Source of the DNA: Candidatus Caldarchaeum sp.
GTDB taxonomy: Archaea; Thermoproteota; Nitrososphaeria_A; Caldarchaeales; Caldarchaeaceae
NCBI GenBank assembly: GCA_025058435.1
Contig: JANXEM010000029.1
Coordinates: 1 to 5,350 of the forward strand
Length of the DNA: 5,350 nucleotides
Reading direction: 5' to 3'
Shown here: piece by piece, positions 667-5,350 of the stretch
Numbering within the stretch: the first letter of the stretch is position 1
Layout of the letters: each line of letters opens with the position of its first letter
Notes under the pieces: generated by a model
Told to the model about the DNA's origin: nothing
What the model saw: the letters and a program-made list of their open reading frames with translations, nothing else
The model's database searches: none
Made by a program: the position numbers and the translations under genes

Positions 667-1995
667 ATGTCGGGGGTTTCTTCGCTGGGCCGGACTTTGA
701 AAGATGTTTTCGGTAAATTTCTTTCCGCGCCTTCGGCCGACAAGGCCGCGGTCGAGGAGCTTGTGAGGGGGATTCAGCGGTCGCTTTTGATGGCGGATGT
801 CAAGGTGGAGCTGGTTCAGAAACTTTCGGAGCGGATTCGTCAAAGGGCTTTCAGCGAAAAACTTCCGCCGGGTGTGAGCAGAAAAGACAGCATCGCGAAA
901 ATCGTCTACGAAGAGCTGACGGCCCTGCTCGGCGACAAGCCGGCCAAATTTTCGACGGGGGGGAGGAAACCCTACGTGATAATGCTCCTCGGCATACAGG
1001 GAACGGGAAAAACAACGACGGCCGCCAAACTGGCTAACTATCTCAAAGTCAACGGACACAGGGTCGGGGTAGTCTGCGCCGACACCTACAGGCCCGCGGC
1101 CTTCCAACAGCTCAAACAACTCCTTGAACCACGACAGATACCGGTATACGGCGAACCGTCGAACAACGACCCCGTCAAAATAGCCGCAAACGGCCTCCAA
1201 TTTTTCAAACAACAAAACACAGAGGTCGTCATCATCGACACAGCCGGGCGACACCGCCAGCAGGAATCTCTGATGGAGGAGATGAAAAACTTGGAGAAGG
1301 CCCTCAAACCCGACGAAAACATCCTCATCATCGATGGAACAATTGGCCAGCAGGCGGGAATTCACGCCGAAGCCTTCCACAAAGCCACACCCGTCGGTTC
1401 GATAATCGTAACCAAGCTGGACACATCGGCGAAAGGCGGAGGAGCCTTGACGGCCGTCGCGGAAACAGGGGCGGCGATAAAATTCATAGGAGTCGGCGAA
1501 GCAGTTGAAGATTTTCAGCCATTCAACCCCGCGGCATACATCGCATCCCTCCTCGGAATGCCCGACATCGAAAGCCTCGTCGAAAAAGTCAAGCTCGCCG
1601 AAATGGCGACCGACGAAGAAAGAATGAAAGCCATGCTTTCCGGCAAATTCACCCTCGAAGACATGGTCAACCAAGTAAGCAGCCTCACAAAACTCGGGCC
1701 CCTCCGGAAAATCCTTTCAAAACTGCCGCTTCCGGGGGTCGACGGCCTGTCGGATGAACAGCTGGAAGAAGCGGAAAAACGGATAAAAAAATGGACCGCC
1801 ATTATCAAGTCGATGACTCTGGAGGAAAGGGCCGACCCCGGCATAATCGATGGCTCGAGGGTGAGAAGGATTTCTCGGGGGGCGGGTGTCCTCGAAAGAG
1901 ACGTGAGAGAGCTCCTCAAAAGCTATCAAACGTCCCGGAAAATGCTGAAAGACCGAAAGCTGCGACACCTTCTCAGGACAAGGGGACTCGAATAA
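667..1995 (+). CDS. srp54: Signal recognition particle protein SRP54 (Ffh homologue)
   Basis: This 442-residue GTPase binds SRP RNA and the signal sequences of emerging membrane and secreted proteins, and delivers ribosomes to the receptor FtsY at the membrane. The N domain covers about residues 1-95. The G domain follows with P-loop GIQGTGKTT (109-117), [11 protein letters not shown] (139-149), DTAGRH (191-196), DGTIGQQA (223-230), TKLD (249-252) and GVGE (285-288). The M domain starts near 300, with a finger-loop region (about 340-362) and the RNA-binding helix-turn-helix [11 protein letters not shown] (397-407). Length matches archaeal SRP54. The ATG at 667 gives the normal N domain; GGTG lies only 2 nt upstream, so a short-leader start is likely. 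Two normally constant spots differ: the residue after TKLD is Thr rather than the usual Gly, and the hinge LLGMGD reads LLGMPD. It is the first gene of the plus-strand cluster. Confidence 0.98.
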
Positions 1996-3300
1996 TTGGA
2001 AACAGTTCTCGAGCAAACAGCTCTGCTGCTGCGAAACATAGCCCTCTGCGACTACTGTCTCGGCCGACAGTTCGCCCGAATATCGCCGACCACCAGCAAC
2101 AGGGAAAAAGGCCGGGCTCTAAAACTCGCCCTTTTTCTTGAAGCGGCGAAAAACCAAGAAAAAGAACTGATAACCGTCCTCGCGTCCAACGGCGGGCTGG
2201 ACGAGGCCCTTCATCATCTTCGCTCCCCGGAAACGATGAAAAAAAGCTGCGAATTATGCGGAGGATTGCTGAACGAAACCAAATTCAACGGCCTCGCCGA
2301 AAAGGCCGCAGACCTTCTAACCGCCCACGAATTCACGACTTTTCTCGTGGGGGCCAAAGCTTCTGCGGAAGTGATTGAACGAGAAGACATGCTGCGTTCA
2401 GCCGTCGGCATATCTGAAGGAGAGGACATACGGAACGACGTCAAAAGAGAGTTCGCGAAACGATTCGCCGAAATTACGGGCAAGAAAATTGAATACGCGT
2501 CGCCGGATGTCGTAATCACTGTGGACATTTTTCGGGACAGGGTCGATGTTTTCCCCAACCCCGTCTTTGTAAAGGGCCGGTATCTCAAACACAGCAGGGA
2601 GCTTCCGCAGTCGGTTTGGCACTGTGGATTCTGTTGGGGCCGGGGATGCGAAAAATGCGGCTACACGGGCCGTAAATATTCGTTGAGTGTGGCGGAGCTG
2701 GTCGGCGAAACGGCGAAGCAAATCTACATGTCGATTGATTACAAATTTCACGCAGCGGGCCGTGAGGACGTCGACGCCCTCGTCGCCGGCGAAGGAAGGC
2801 CTTTCATCCTCGAGCTCAAAAAACCCGTCAAACGTTACCAGCCTCTGCAGGAAGTCGAGAAACAAATCAACGAAAACGCCAAAGGCCTCGTGACTGTTTT
2901 CCTCGAATCCTATACTACGAGGAAAGAAGTTCGCGCGATCAAGCTTACGTCGCCGGCGACGGCGAAAACATATTTGCTGACCGCGGTCTACGGGGTCGAC
3001 CTCGAGGAACAGGCCGTCAAGGCGTTGGAGGCGCGTTTCAGGAATGTGGTCGTGGACCAGTTGACGCCGACCCGCGTGCTGAAGCGTAGGCCCGAGAAGT
3101 TGCGTAAGAAAACGGTTTACGAAGTTGAAACCCGTCTCGTGGACAGACGGACGGCTGTTTTCCGCATCCGTTGTCAGGGGGGGCTTTACGTCAAGGAGCT
3201 GGTGACTGGCGACCACGGCAGGACGCGTCCATCTTTCGCCGAACATCTGGGAGCGGTTCCGACGTCGATGGAGCTGACCGTAGTAAAAGTCGAAACATAA
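1996..3300 (+). CDS. pus10: tRNA pseudouridine synthase Pus10
   Basis: Pus10 converts U54 and U55 of the tRNA T-loop to pseudouridine in archaea, taking the place of bacterial TruB for U55. The N-terminal part carries CDYCLGRQFA (C18, C21) and CELCGG (C85, C88), the expected zinc ligands, followed by a THUMP-like region. A second cysteine cluster occurs at C210, C213, C218 and C221, then YTGRKYSLSVAEL. The catalytic domain has FHAAGREDVD (251-260) with D258 the probable catalytic aspartate, GRPFILE, and a C-terminal GGLYVKELVTGDHGRTRPS that is standard for the family. At 434 residues it is of usual length. The TTG start is chosen because it directly follows the in-frame srp54 stop and places the first CxxC at residue 18, as expected; no other ATG, GTG or TTG lies between the stop and that motif. 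A G-rich stretch (1982-1985) is the only hint of a ribosome site. Residues 261-264 (ALVA) depart from the usual pattern containing Arg. Confidence 0.96.
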   Translation: METVLEQTALLLRNIALCDYCLGRQFARISPTTSNREKGRALKLALFLEAAKNQEKELITVLASNGGLDEALHHLRSPETMKKSCELCGGLLNETKFNGLAEKAADLLTAHEFTTFLVGAKASAEVIEREDMLRSAVGISEGEDIRNDVKREFAKRFAEITGKKIEYASPDVVITVDIFRDRVDVFPNPVFVKGRYLKHSRELPQSVWHCGFCWGRGCEKCGYTGRKYSLSVAELVGETAKQIYMSIDYKFHAAGREDVDALVAGEGRPFILELKKPVKRYQPLQEVEKQINENAKGLVTVFLESYTTRKEVRAIKLTSPATAKTYLLTAVYGVDLEEQAVKALEARFRNVVVDQLTPTRVLKRRPEKLRKKTVYEVETRLVDRRTAVFRIRCQGGLYVKELVTGDHGRTRPSFAEHLGAVPTSMELTVVKVET

Positions 3301-3304
3301 ACGC

Positions 3305-3310
3305 TTTTAT
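3305..3310 (+). promoter_or_regulatory. Possible TATA-like element upstream of rpl21e
   Basis: The 36-nt gap between pus10 and rpl21e contains TTTTAT about 29 nt before the rpl21e ATG, the distance that would give a leaderless or nearly leaderless transcript. It is the widest gap in the plus-strand cluster, so an internal promoter separating the ribosomal and polymerase genes from srp54-pus10 is plausible. The motif is weak, and the T-run could instead contribute to transcript ending after pus10. Confidence 0.3.
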
Positions 3311-3336
3311 CATGGTGTAAAACCTTTTGGACGAAG

Positions 3337-3624
3337 ATGCCGCAGTCTAAAGGCTTCCGAAGAAAATCAAGGGGATATCTTAAGAAAGACAAGGGCTCGA
3401 GGAGCGGGCCTTCTCCCGACATCTACCTTCGAGAATACAAGCCGGGCGACAGAGTTCTTATAGCGATAGAGCCGTCCATCCAGAAGGGCTCCCCCCACCG
3501 CCGCTACCACGGTAAAATCGGCGAAATAGTCGAGAAACGCGGGAGAGGATACGTGGTCAAGGTTGGTGAAGAAGGAAAAATTCTGTCGGTTCTTCCCGAC
3601 CACATCAGGGGAGCCGTGAAATAG
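3337..3624 (+). CDS. rpl21e: 50S ribosomal protein L21e
   Basis: A 95-residue, strongly basic protein matching the archaeal/eukaryotic L21e family, a component of the large ribosomal subunit that binds 23S rRNA. The N-terminal arm is rich in Lys and Arg (residues 1-24). It is followed by the SH3-like barrel with YKPGDRV (34-40), the family signature GSPHRRYHGK (51-60), and GYVVKV (71-76), ending in the usual LPDHIR segment. Length is typical. The ATG at 3337 matches the normal short N-terminus; no clear Shine-Dalgarno motif precedes it. The rpoF gene begins 3 nt after its stop codon, so the two are almost certainly co-transcribed, as in many archaea. Confidence 0.97.
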   Translation: MPQSKGFRRKSRGYLKKDKGSRSGPSPDIYLREYKPGDRVLIAIEPSIQKGSPHRRYHGKIGEIVEKRGRGYVVKVGEEGKILSVLPDHIRGAVK

Positions 3625-3627
3625 AGC

Positions 3628-3984
3628 ATGGTGAGGAAAATCATTTCGAAAACCGAAATTCCGATGTCGACTGTAGCTAAGCTGATCGAAGAAAGAGCCG
3701 AATCCCCGAACGTTCTCCAGTCAAGAGTGCTGTCCTACGTAAAAAAATATTCGAAGCTTTCACCTGAACAGGCAAACCTGCTGGTCGAAAAGCTCATGGC
3801 CGAGATTGGTTTGACGCGGGAAGAGGCGGTGCAGGTCGCTGATACCTGTCCCCGCAACGTTGAGGAGCTCAGGGCCATCCTCAGCGGATACAAAAGGCTC
3901 GTATCATTCCTCCTGTTTTCGGAGGAGAAGATGCGGGCCGTTTTGAAGCTGGTCGAAGACGCTGTCGCAGGTCGTTTGACTTAG
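3628..3984 (+). CDS. rpoF: DNA-directed RNA polymerase subunit Rpo4 (RpoF, Rpb4 homologue)
   Basis: Rpo4 forms the stalk of archaeal RNA polymerase with Rpo7. It helps open complex formation and binds emerging RNA. The 118-residue sequence has the N-terminal strand region that contacts Rpo7 (about 1-12), a helix STVAKLIEER (14-23) where the family has its xVKxxLE segment, and the C-terminal HRDC-like helical bundle with PRNVEELRAIL (75-85), the most recognisable part of archaeal Rpb4. Length is normal (about 110-120). The ATG at 3628 lies 3 nt after the rpl21e stop; GTG, the second codon, is an alternative start differing by one residue. No good ribosome site is seen in the short gap, suggesting translation coupled to rpl21e. 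Placement between L21e and DUF655 is the standard archaeal arrangement and supports the call. Confidence 0.93.
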   Translation: MVRKIISKTEIPMSTVAKLIEERAESPNVLQSRVLSYVKKYSKLSPEQANLLVEKLMAEIGLTREEAVQVADTCPRNVEELRAILSGYKRLVSFLLFSEEKMRAVLKLVEDAVAGRLT

Positions 3985-3989
3985 AGTTT

Positions 3990-4586
3990 GTGAATGACAT
4001 GCAGCGTCAAAAACGTTACGAAGATTATGGATACGTTTTAGACGTCTTTCCCGCATCCCAGCATCGGGTATCGGGCCAGCGTTTCTTCCAAGACCGAAAC
4101 GAATTCGTCCTCCAGCTTCTCGGCGAAGAATTCTTCACCCTGCTCGAAGTCGCGGTCAACGAAAGGTTCAGGCCCAAGCCGGGGACGCGGTTCTACATCG
4201 GCCGCGACGTCCCGCGGGAAATTCTGCGGATTGTGCGGAGGATAAACTTCGAAGACCTGACGGAGACGGCGGTGGCGAATCTGGAGCCGTCAATATACAG
4301 GATAGTGGAAGAAAATCCTCAGAGGTTTCTGGACTTTATCAACAACAGCGGGTTGTTGACTCCCCGGATGCATGCCCTCGAGCTGGTTCCCGGAATCGGC
4401 AAGAAGATGCTTCAAAAATTCCTGCAGGAAAGGGACAACTCGAAGTTCGCCAGCTTCGACGACATCAAAAACAGAACGGGCCTGCCAAACCCCGTGGAAG
4501 CGATTGTGAAAAGAATTATGCAGGAGCTGAAGAACAGGGAGGAAAAATATAGGTTGTTTGTCCGCGAGCCAACCCCCAGAGAATAG
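3990..4586 (+). CDS. DUF655 family protein (COG1491), predicted nucleic-acid-binding protein of unknown function
   Basis: A 198-residue protein of an archaeal family with no settled function. The N-terminal part (about 10-80) begins with the family pattern YEDYGYVLDVFP (10-21) and includes the basic segment RFRPKPGTRFYIG (59-71), predicted from family knowledge to be an OB-like barrel. The C-terminal half carries a helix-hairpin-helix element LELVPGIGKKM (130-140) and a second helical repeat around DDIKNRTGLPNP (157-168), a RuvA-like arrangement that usually binds the nucleic-acid backbone. The tail is highly charged. GTG at 3990, 5 nt after the rpoF stop, is taken as the start; ATG at 3999 (residue 4) is equally possible, since the conserved region starts near residue 10. 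Its fixed position next to rpl21e and rpoF suggests a role in transcription, RNA or ribosome maturation, which is inference. Confidence 0.9.
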   Translation: MNDMQRQKRYEDYGYVLDVFPASQHRVSGQRFFQDRNEFVLQLLGEEFFTLLEVAVNERFRPKPGTRFYIGRDVPREILRIVRRINFEDLTETAVANLEPSIYRIVEENPQRFLDFINNSGLLTPRMHALELVPGIGKKMLQKFLQERDNSKFASFDDIKNRTGLPNPVEAIVKRIMQELKNREEKYRLFVREPTPRE

Positions 4587-4587
4587 C

Positions 4588-5350
4588 TCATTTTCCGCGG
4601 AACTGCGGTTCTCTTTTTTCGTAGAACCTCGCCCTGATGCCCTCTTTTAGGTCGTCGGTGTAGAACATCAAAATTGATTCCTTGAGCTGATATTCCATCC
4701 CTTCGTCGACGGGCATTTCACCGCCGAGGTTGACGCAGGCCTTGGTCGCTCCCACCGCGAGGGGTGCGTTCTTGTTTATTTTCCGAGCCAAAGCCATCGC
4801 CTCTTCCATCAGTTTCTCATGAGGCACGACCTTGTTGACGAACCCCAGCCGGTATCCTTCTTCAGCCGACACCCAATCTCCCGTAAACAGGAAATATTTG
4901 GCCCAGTATTTGCTCAAAAACCTCGGAATCCTCACGGTAATACCGGCTCCCGGGCTGACCCCGATAGTTACCTCCGGCAAACCAAACCGAGCGTTCTGAC
5001 TGGCCACCACTATGTCAACTGCCTGAATGACTTCTATGTTGCAGAAGCCGTTGACCGCCGCTATGATGGGTTTCCTCATCTTTTCCATGAACCGCCAGAC
5101 GTCGAGGTTAAACCGGTTGAACTTCTCTATTTCGCTGATTTTCCCCGCCTCGACGTTGGCGAGAAACTCTTTGGCGTCTCCGCCGGAGCAGAAGGCCTTG
5201 TCCCCCGCACCAGTCACTATGATTGACCAAACCTCTGGGTCATCCGCCGCCTTGTGCAAAGCGTCGTTGAACTCCGTAAGCATGGCGACGCTCATCGCGT
5301 TCCTCGCCTCGGGCCTGTTGAAAGTAATCACCGCTATTTTGTCGTCGGGA
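4588..5350 (-). CDS. Enoyl-CoA hydratase/isomerase (crotonase) family protein, 5' partial, with oxyanion-hole glycines missing
   Basis: The frame stays open to the right edge. Before the GTG at 5331 it reads PDDKIAVITF, normal crotonase sequence, so that GTG is internal and roughly 10 or more residues lie outside the window. Numbering from the GTG codon, the first oxyanion-hole segment is AFCSGGD (46-52), the second is KPIIAAVNGFCN (87-98) followed directly by IEVIQAVD (99-106), and FGLPE (116-120) carries the second catalytic glutamate. Crotonases normally have GGG between the equivalents of residues 98 and 99; here it is absent, while E100 and E120, matching the two catalytic glutamates of hydratases, remain. 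SPGAGIT stands where PGAGGT is usual. The C-terminal FYEKREPQFRGK is typical. The family adds water to, isomerises or hydrolyses CoA thioesters; without the glycine backbone NH that stabilises the thioester oxyanion, activity is doubtful. It is convergent with the DUF655 gene, 1 nt apart. Confidence 0.92.
   Translation of the reverse strand, partial: PDDKIAVITFNRPEARNAMSVAMLTEFNDALHKAADDPEVWSIIVTGAGDKAFCSGGDAKEFLANVEAGKISEIEKFNRFNLDVWRFMEKMRKPIIAAVNGFCNIEVIQAVDIVVASQNARFGLPEVTIGVSPGAGITVRIPRFLSKYWAKYFLFTGDWVSAEEGYRLGFVNKVVPHEKLMEEAMALARKINKNAPLAVGATKACVNLGGEMPVDEGMEYQLKESILMFYTDDLKEGIRARFYEKREPQFRGK
4595..4619 (+). terminator. Possible terminator of the plus-strand cluster, inside the 3' end of the crotonase gene
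   Basis: Just past the DUF655 stop the plus strand has CCGC (4595-4598) and GCGG (4605-4608) able to form a short 4-bp stem with a 6-base loop, followed 5 nt later by six T residues (4614-4619). Archaeal termination depends mainly on U-rich tracts, so the T-run may suffice. The stem is short, and these bases also encode the crotonase C-terminus, so chance is possible. Confidence 0.35.

Follow-up and report, generated by a model that had tools for sequence, protein, structure and literature searches.

An old archaeal crotonase subfamily with a shortened second oxyanion-hole loop and a possible role in aldolytic acyl-CoA breakdown

To our knowledge, the oxyanion hole unifies the whole crotonase superfamily. 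The window, a 5,350-nucleotide stretch of DNA from Candidatus Caldarchaeum sp., ends in a crotonase gene that lacks three residues of the second oxyanion-hole loop. This locus raises the question of whether the short loop is an error, a sign of decay, or the mark of a working subfamily, and, in the last case, what would stand in for the missing residues. The relevant features are listed below, where NxE and xxD denote the two short-loop types described later in the text.

4588–5349, minus strand: short-loop crotonase (enoyl-CoA hydratase/isomerase family), assigned by PF00378 and its nearest homologues; the 5′ end is cut at the window edge.
5032–5052, minus strand: shortened loop NGFCNIE, residues 100–106; the canonical form is NG-x-A-L-G-G-G-x-E.
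5037–5038, minus strand: junction of the three missing residues, N104/I105, placed by alignments with homologues and solved crotonases.
5038–5040, minus strand: Asn104, putative oxyanion donor and proposed to cap the N-terminal end of helix alpha-3; N in 59/59 of the NxE type and V in 9/9 of the xxD type.
5032–5034, minus strand: Glu106, equivalent of catalytic Glu144; E in 59/68 short-loop sequences and D in the remaining nine.
4972–4974, minus strand: Glu126, equivalent of catalytic Glu164; E in 68/68 short-loop sequences.
5179–5181, minus strand: Gly57, first oxyanion-hole position (Ala98 in rat); G in 68/68 short-loop sequences, with A in 121/145 and G in 9/145 canonical ones.
5023–5025, minus strand: Gln109, one turn past Glu106 on helix alpha-3, clade-specific; Q in 59/59 NxE, N in 9/9 xxD, and L or M in 134/145 canonical sequences.
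4939–4941, minus strand: Ile137, in place of the canonical Gly eleven residues past Glu164; I in 97% of NxE-type sequences, with G in 125/145 and I in 0/145 canonical sequences.

The crotonase open reading frame (5349–4588, minus strand) encodes the last 253 residues of the protein and includes the stretch KPIIAAVNGFCNIEVIQAVDIVVASQNARFGLPEV. Its close relatives are 264–265 residues long; therefore, the window protein is about 12 residues short at the N-terminus, and its start lies outside the window. Membership in the superfamily follows from fold and profile, with PF00378 matching at 188.3 bits against a cut-off of 27, and the nearest listed homologues are 85–95% identical. Four residues (FCNI) separate the conserved NG from the first catalytic glutamate in this protein, compared with seven in the solved crotonases aligned. 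Rat enoyl-CoA hydratase (1dub/1mj3) carries the long Gly-rich loop, and the same loop is seen in alignment in the Geobacillus (2pbp) and Clostridium (5z7r) enzymes; in all of these it is three residues longer than in the window crotonase. Against the solved crotonases with alignments shown (three in one set and five in another), the gap is exactly three residues, so that the Gly-rich stretch of the second oxyanion-hole position is incomplete.

The reading frame is intact across the gap. Asn104 is encoded at 5040–5038 (AAC), Ile105 at 5037–5035, Glu106 at 5034–5032, and Glu126 at 4974–4972; these residues were numbered N98, I99, E100, and E120 in the first-pass annotation, which had described a minus-strand loop three residues short between Asn and Ile, with the frame and the equivalents of Glu144 and Glu164 preserved. 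The alignments bear out this description, with E106 and E126 both present. The annotation had also held that exactly Gly-Gly-Gly is lost. The length of the gap agrees with this wording, but the residues flanking it are altered too (canonical ALGGGCE versus CNIE); a loss of exactly GGG gives the simplest alignment, one consistent with the predicted secondary structure, while other alignments are possible.

A nine-base sequencing or assembly error and slippage leaving an inactive protein were two of the three explanations originally offered, and the window taken by itself is compatible with an error. However, the same loop is found in G004, a separate genome with 92.4% DNA identity to the window over all 5350 bases, as well as in 68 of 325 aligned crotonases originating from many contigs. 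The crotonase genes of the window and G004 differ by 38 synonymous and three nonsynonymous changes (dN/dS 0.018); the gene is under purifying selection, which is strong in the close pairs measured. The short-loop sequences form one deep clade, and both catalytic glutamates are present in all 59 sequences of the window's type. An assembly error is thus refuted and a pseudogene ruled out, leaving error or decay with a vanishingly small probability. Slippage into inactivity finds no support on these grounds, and of the three explanations it is the third, a subfamily whose pocket has changed, that holds.

An alignment with the closest archaeal crotonases, the check that the first-pass annotation had suggested, finds the short loop to be clade-wide. 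Among the 325 aligned sequences (309 database proteins, the window, and 15 locus translations that may in part duplicate the database set), the spacing is four in 68 and seven in 257, with no other length; these sets are drawn from lists of the best 120 matches, and the ratio is not a measure of short-loop frequency across all crotonases. L101, whose loop reads NGYCNIE, is left outside these counts. The three loop positions of the 257 long forms are GGG in 230, GAG in 13, AGG in 12, and GEG and GSG in one each. All 43 nearest homologues listed from a database of 5.8 billion proteins (46–95% identical) share the short loop, while the next 77 listed (P0044–P0120, 38–46% identical) all have the long one, and the short loop is therefore not a product of chance.

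Among the named carriers of the short loop are Candidatus Caldarchaeum, Candidatus Pelearchaeum, Conexivisphaera, and Nitrososphaerales. In the class of G001, nine of 44 genomes carry the window's type. Two further searches, in which at most the best six candidates were scored per genome, covered the class of G003 and the phylum. From 400 genomes drawn from the former, 12 matched: nine with the NIE loop, two of the VMD type, and one canonical. The phylum search matched 20 of 398 genomes in 22 rows, comprising nine of the window's type, one more short-loop form (L135, from G673), and seven canonical forms (L136–L141 and L146), with L142–L145 and L147 left out of the classification. G427, a candidate at 254 bits, was dropped as a member because it carries GGG.

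In a maximum-likelihood tree of 59 sequences, built without the loop columns and their flanks, all 23 short-loop sequences lie on one side of a single branch, which has a UFboot value of 98 and an SH-aLRT value of 94 and is recovered in 98% of the 200 bootstrap replicates. A faster tree of 80 sequences (35 short) yields the same split with an SH-aLRT value of 91. The nearest long-loop relatives, P0138–P0142, have seven-residue loops such as ALAGGTE. The archaeal subfamily with the short second oxyanion-hole loop is old. Its simplest history looks like a single three-residue loss before the sampled forms diverged, the tree being unrooted as to loss or gain and counting changes only; loss is favored over gain because the long loop is so widespread. 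The first-pass annotation had set a whole clade with a different loop and another oxyanion donor against a deletion. The loop is indeed clade-wide, but with a root placed among the canonical forms the change remains a loss of three residues, and the other donor is a proposal.

Two types are distinguished within the short-loop branch. The NxE type (59 of 68 sequences), to which the window belongs, has an asparagine two residues before the first glutamate and retains both catalytic glutamates. In the xxD type (9 of 68), this asparagine is replaced by valine, the first glutamate by aspartate, and both Gln109 and Leu124 by asparagine, all together. The xxD members (VMD/VLD) are L120:8910-9680 (G242), L110 (G407), P0121, P0123, P0127, P0128, and P0130–P0132, and those in the tree form one small clade. 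The loss of Asn and first Glu together suggests that the two act together, and their joint change may be a single event. The crotonase of G242 lies near genes for an MFS transporter, an HMGL-like enzyme, and a periplasmic binding protein, with no molybdenum hydroxylase module in the 19 kb read around it.

The AlphaFold2 model of the window protein, calculated with an 80-row alignment that includes canonical sequences, has an intact fold (pLDDT 97.2) in which helix alpha-3 starts at I105, one residue ahead of the first glutamate. A disordered active site was considered on the basis of pLDDT values of 64–65 at residues 131–150 in a model from 43 rows, all short-loop; the values rise to 94–96 with the 80 rows, and the dip is thus probably an artifact of the shallow alignment. 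The predicted fold superposes on solved hydratases with an rmsd of 1.2–1.5 in the five best rows of the fold search. This superposition and the helix start at I105 are also what is expected if the deletion is structurally near neutral, such that the NH of I105 or E106 falls in the same place, Asn104 is a mere helix cap, and the protein is an ordinary short-chain hydratase. This reading is quite unlikely: residues N104, Q109, I137, G200, Q221, and E224 are clade-specific and invariant or nearly so, Gln221 replacing a canonical Glu, and they argue for a distinct job, as does the presence of canonical crotonases in the same genomes (G001–G003).

With both catalytic acids and the invariant asparagine at the gap preserved, the main short-loop type appears to be a functional enzyme whose active site has been rebuilt. 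The remodelled N-terminal end of helix alpha-3 probably takes over from the missing Gly backbone NH. Asn104 ahead of the helix and the free NH groups of residues 105 and 106 would serve as donors, together with the Gly57 NH at the first oxyanion-hole position. Asn104 is a possible donor by virtue of its invariance and position; the xxD type, which keeps the short loop despite the loss of this residue and the first glutamate, counts against such a role. The backbone NH of the first site would serve with either Gly or Ala, and Ile137 is a possible filler of the space vacated by the lost loop.

The window crotonase probably remains an enoyl-CoA hydratase/dehydratase, as both catalytic glutamates are kept in every sequence of its type. 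An alternative is that the subfamily is no longer a hydratase and, with one backbone NH left, catalyzes a different CoA reaction, as an isomerase, lyase, or hydrolase, with a substrate needing less oxyanion stabilization. Both oxyanion positions are changed, with Gly for Ala at the first, and the sister xxD type has turned its first glutamate into aspartate, as this alternative would have it. However, it is rendered unlikely by the Glu144 and Glu164 equivalents found in 59/59 sequences of the window's type, a pair used in hydration according to the Nmar_1308 study (PMC8613188).

Nmar_1308, a 3HP-CoA dehydratase, is an archaeal crotonase with the same two glutamates as the window protein. Its oxyanion donor Gly109 is kept at the start of helix alpha-3, three residues ahead of the first glutamate, Glu112 (PMC8613188). 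The retention of this glycine rules out the window crotonase as Nmar_1308, the 3HP/4HB enzyme of ammonia oxidizers. A second archaeal crotonase, 5zai, also shares both glutamates but has a full-length loop in the alignments. The best NCBIfam score of the window protein is to the EchA19-type hydratases (NF051848; 4f47, 6wyi), although its 232.6 bits fall far below the cut-off of 400.

Gene neighborhoods were read in 18 genomes with the window's type, nine each from the classes of G001 and G003. In 12 of these (G002, G003, G008, G009, G053, G057, G086, G102, G292, G397, G433, and G444), the crotonase is at most three genes away from a molybdenum hydroxylase large subunit. The stretch read also holds an acyl-CoA dehydrogenase gene in 10 of the 12 and genes for a thiolase-like and a DUF35 protein in 11 (11/18 overall), the exception being G292, with neither of the latter two within 17 kb. 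A uracil-DNA-glycosylase-family gene, an odd partner for acyl-CoA enzymes, adjoins the crotonase at five loci (L118:8399-9151, by profile scan; L121:8916-9734, L126:5854-6630, L127:8897-9625, and L130:12200-12781, by similarity).

In the remaining six genomes (G001, G004, G005, G006, G007, and G011), the crotonase stands apart from this module. In the window, genes for SRP54, Pus10 (TTG start), L21e, an RPB4-like protein, and DUF655 run in one direction at 667–4583 and converge on the crotonase; these and an NDP-sugar-epimerase-family gene are ordinary archaeal housekeeping, and molybdenum hydroxylase, acyl-CoA dehydrogenase, thiolase-like, and DUF35 genes are absent within the window. The same gene order, with the crotonase adjoining DUF655, is repeated in G001, G004, G005, and G006, while G007 and G011 have other surroundings. 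A cluster of acyl-CoA dehydrogenase, molybdenum hydroxylase, and thiolase-like genes is found elsewhere in the genomes of G001, G006, G007, and G011, with DUF35 there in the first three. G004, the closest genome, keeps the hydroxylase and acyl-CoA dehydrogenase side by side; its draft yields no thiolase-like match, and the 8 kb surrounding the pair contain no DUF35 gene. The G005 draft also has no thiolase-like match, and its best molybdenum hydroxylase matches are 46–52% identical. The module is incomplete in the nearest kin of the window. Beside the hydroxylase of G004, in the place taken by the thiolase-like and DUF35 genes in relatives, lies a gene that by eye looks like GAPDH (L158:360-1394).

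The distant short-loop carrier G673 has acyl-CoA dehydrogenase and CoxM/CoxS-like genes nearby; thiolase-like, DUF35, and molybdenum large-subunit genes are absent from the 18 kb read. The acyl-CoA dehydrogenase gene next to its crotonase is split over two frames (L148:9567-9926 and 9917-10684), by a frameshift or a sequencing error. Among the 44 genomes of one class, a thiolase-like orthologue (at least 58% identity) occurs in seven of nine crotonase carriers and in none of the 35 others, with two others having 32% matches; the hypergeometric p of 9.4e-7 assumes independent genomes, whereas these are related drafts.

The thiolase-like proteins lack the typical thiolase residues. In all 14 compared (of 15 found, the one from G086 being only located), CASG is absent, a residue other than Cys occupies the aligned Cys position, YDD[YF]T stands in place of HDxFT, and GQ is found at the GHP position (by eye in L130). 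Those of L121 and L127 have a cysteine four positions after the lost one, and L119 has another thiolase with all three thiolase features. The pattern resembles that of Ltp2 (6ok1), which aligns with YD for HD and with no thiolase Cys at that position but a Cys close by. Ltp2 is the aldolase of steroid side-chain breakdown (PMC11321319). The one DUF35 protein scanned, that of L121, matches the Pfam ChsH2 C-terminal domain. The one molybdenum hydroxylase scanned, also of L121, has glyceraldehyde dehydrogenase as its best NCBIfam match, at 564 bits and below the cut-off of 790. A gene for a 4HBT-type thioesterase comes next in G006, and one for an AMP-forming ligase is nearby in G053, G086, and G102.

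The string AYRCSFR, which we take to be a mark of form-I CO dehydrogenase, is in none of the 17 molybdenum large subunits read. Multiple CoxL copies in five Caldarchaeales genomes are reported as aerobic carbon-monoxide dehydrogenase (PMC10547907). In G001, G002, G004–G009, and G011, genomes of about 1.4–1.8 Mb have 11 to 17 molybdenum hydroxylase matches each (E 1e-60), with contig-end fragments counted apart. Three large-subunit paralogues from two Caldarchaeum-type genomes (G006:C1:539276-541612, G006:C1:365227-367506, and G001:C5:51120-53363) contain one in-frame TGA each, which may be a frameshift, an error, or a recoded codon.

On the basis of these neighbors and motifs, an aldolytic acyl-CoA-shortening module with the short-loop crotonase as its hydratase is proposed. 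In most relatives, the crotonase would hydrate the enoyl-CoA made by the neighboring acyl-CoA dehydrogenase, the thiolase-like protein would then cleave the 3-hydroxyacyl-CoA with DUF35 in a retro-aldol step, and the molybdenum hydroxylase would oxidize the carbonyl product. The module would thus match, with a crotonase as its hydratase, the bacterial Shy-Sal and ChsH-Ltp2 modules for steroid side chains. Shy-Sal performs hydration and retro-aldol cleavage to a free aldehyde, followed by oxidation and re-esterification, and its likeness, like that of ChsH1-ChsH2-Ltp2, lies in an acyl-CoA dehydrogenase, a hydratase, DUF35, and a thiolase-fold aldolase, with the later aldehyde oxidation in Shy-Sal (PMC11321319). 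The Shy and ChsH hydratases have the MaoC hot-dog fold and are linked to DUF35. In contrast, the candidate here is a crotonase with a separate DUF35 gene, and the window protein has neither the hot-dog fold nor a DUF35 domain. The candidate aldehyde oxidizer is a molybdenum hydroxylase, unlike in those systems.

In G053 and G102, a crotonase of the GGG type is found close to the module, and in G011 a further crotonase gene directly adjoins the short one; thus, the module's hydratase could be another protein. The canonical neighbors in G053 and G102, along with the variation of surroundings between lineages, also speak for a subfamily that has left hydration. The preferred reading, which combines a selected subfamily, an active hydratase, a rebuilt oxyanion hole, and the aldolytic module, is given a nearly even chance as a whole. 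The more specific conjunction is somewhat unlikely, namely, that a fixed three-residue deletion removed a backbone NH that was replaced by an invariant Asn side-chain amide at the new helix start, that the enzyme serves archaeal aldolytic acyl-CoA shortening with a dehydrogenase, a DUF35/thiolase-fold aldolase, and a molybdenum aldehyde oxidase, and that a sister branch lacks both Asn and first Glu.

The titles and abstract openings of the literature searched, which leaves most subscription journals outside its coverage, contain no described loop-deleted crotonase and nothing on point for an archaeal aldolytic module. The short-loop branch is a crotonase by fold, sequence, and catalytic glutamates and fails one feature held typical of the family. 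As a conserved branch under selection in which one of two loops has been cut, it offers a natural experiment on the extent to which the chemistry depends on the oxyanion hole. Its neighborhood points to a possible aldolytic route of acyl-CoA breakdown in Caldarchaeum, Conexivisphaera-like, and Nitrososphaerales archaea.
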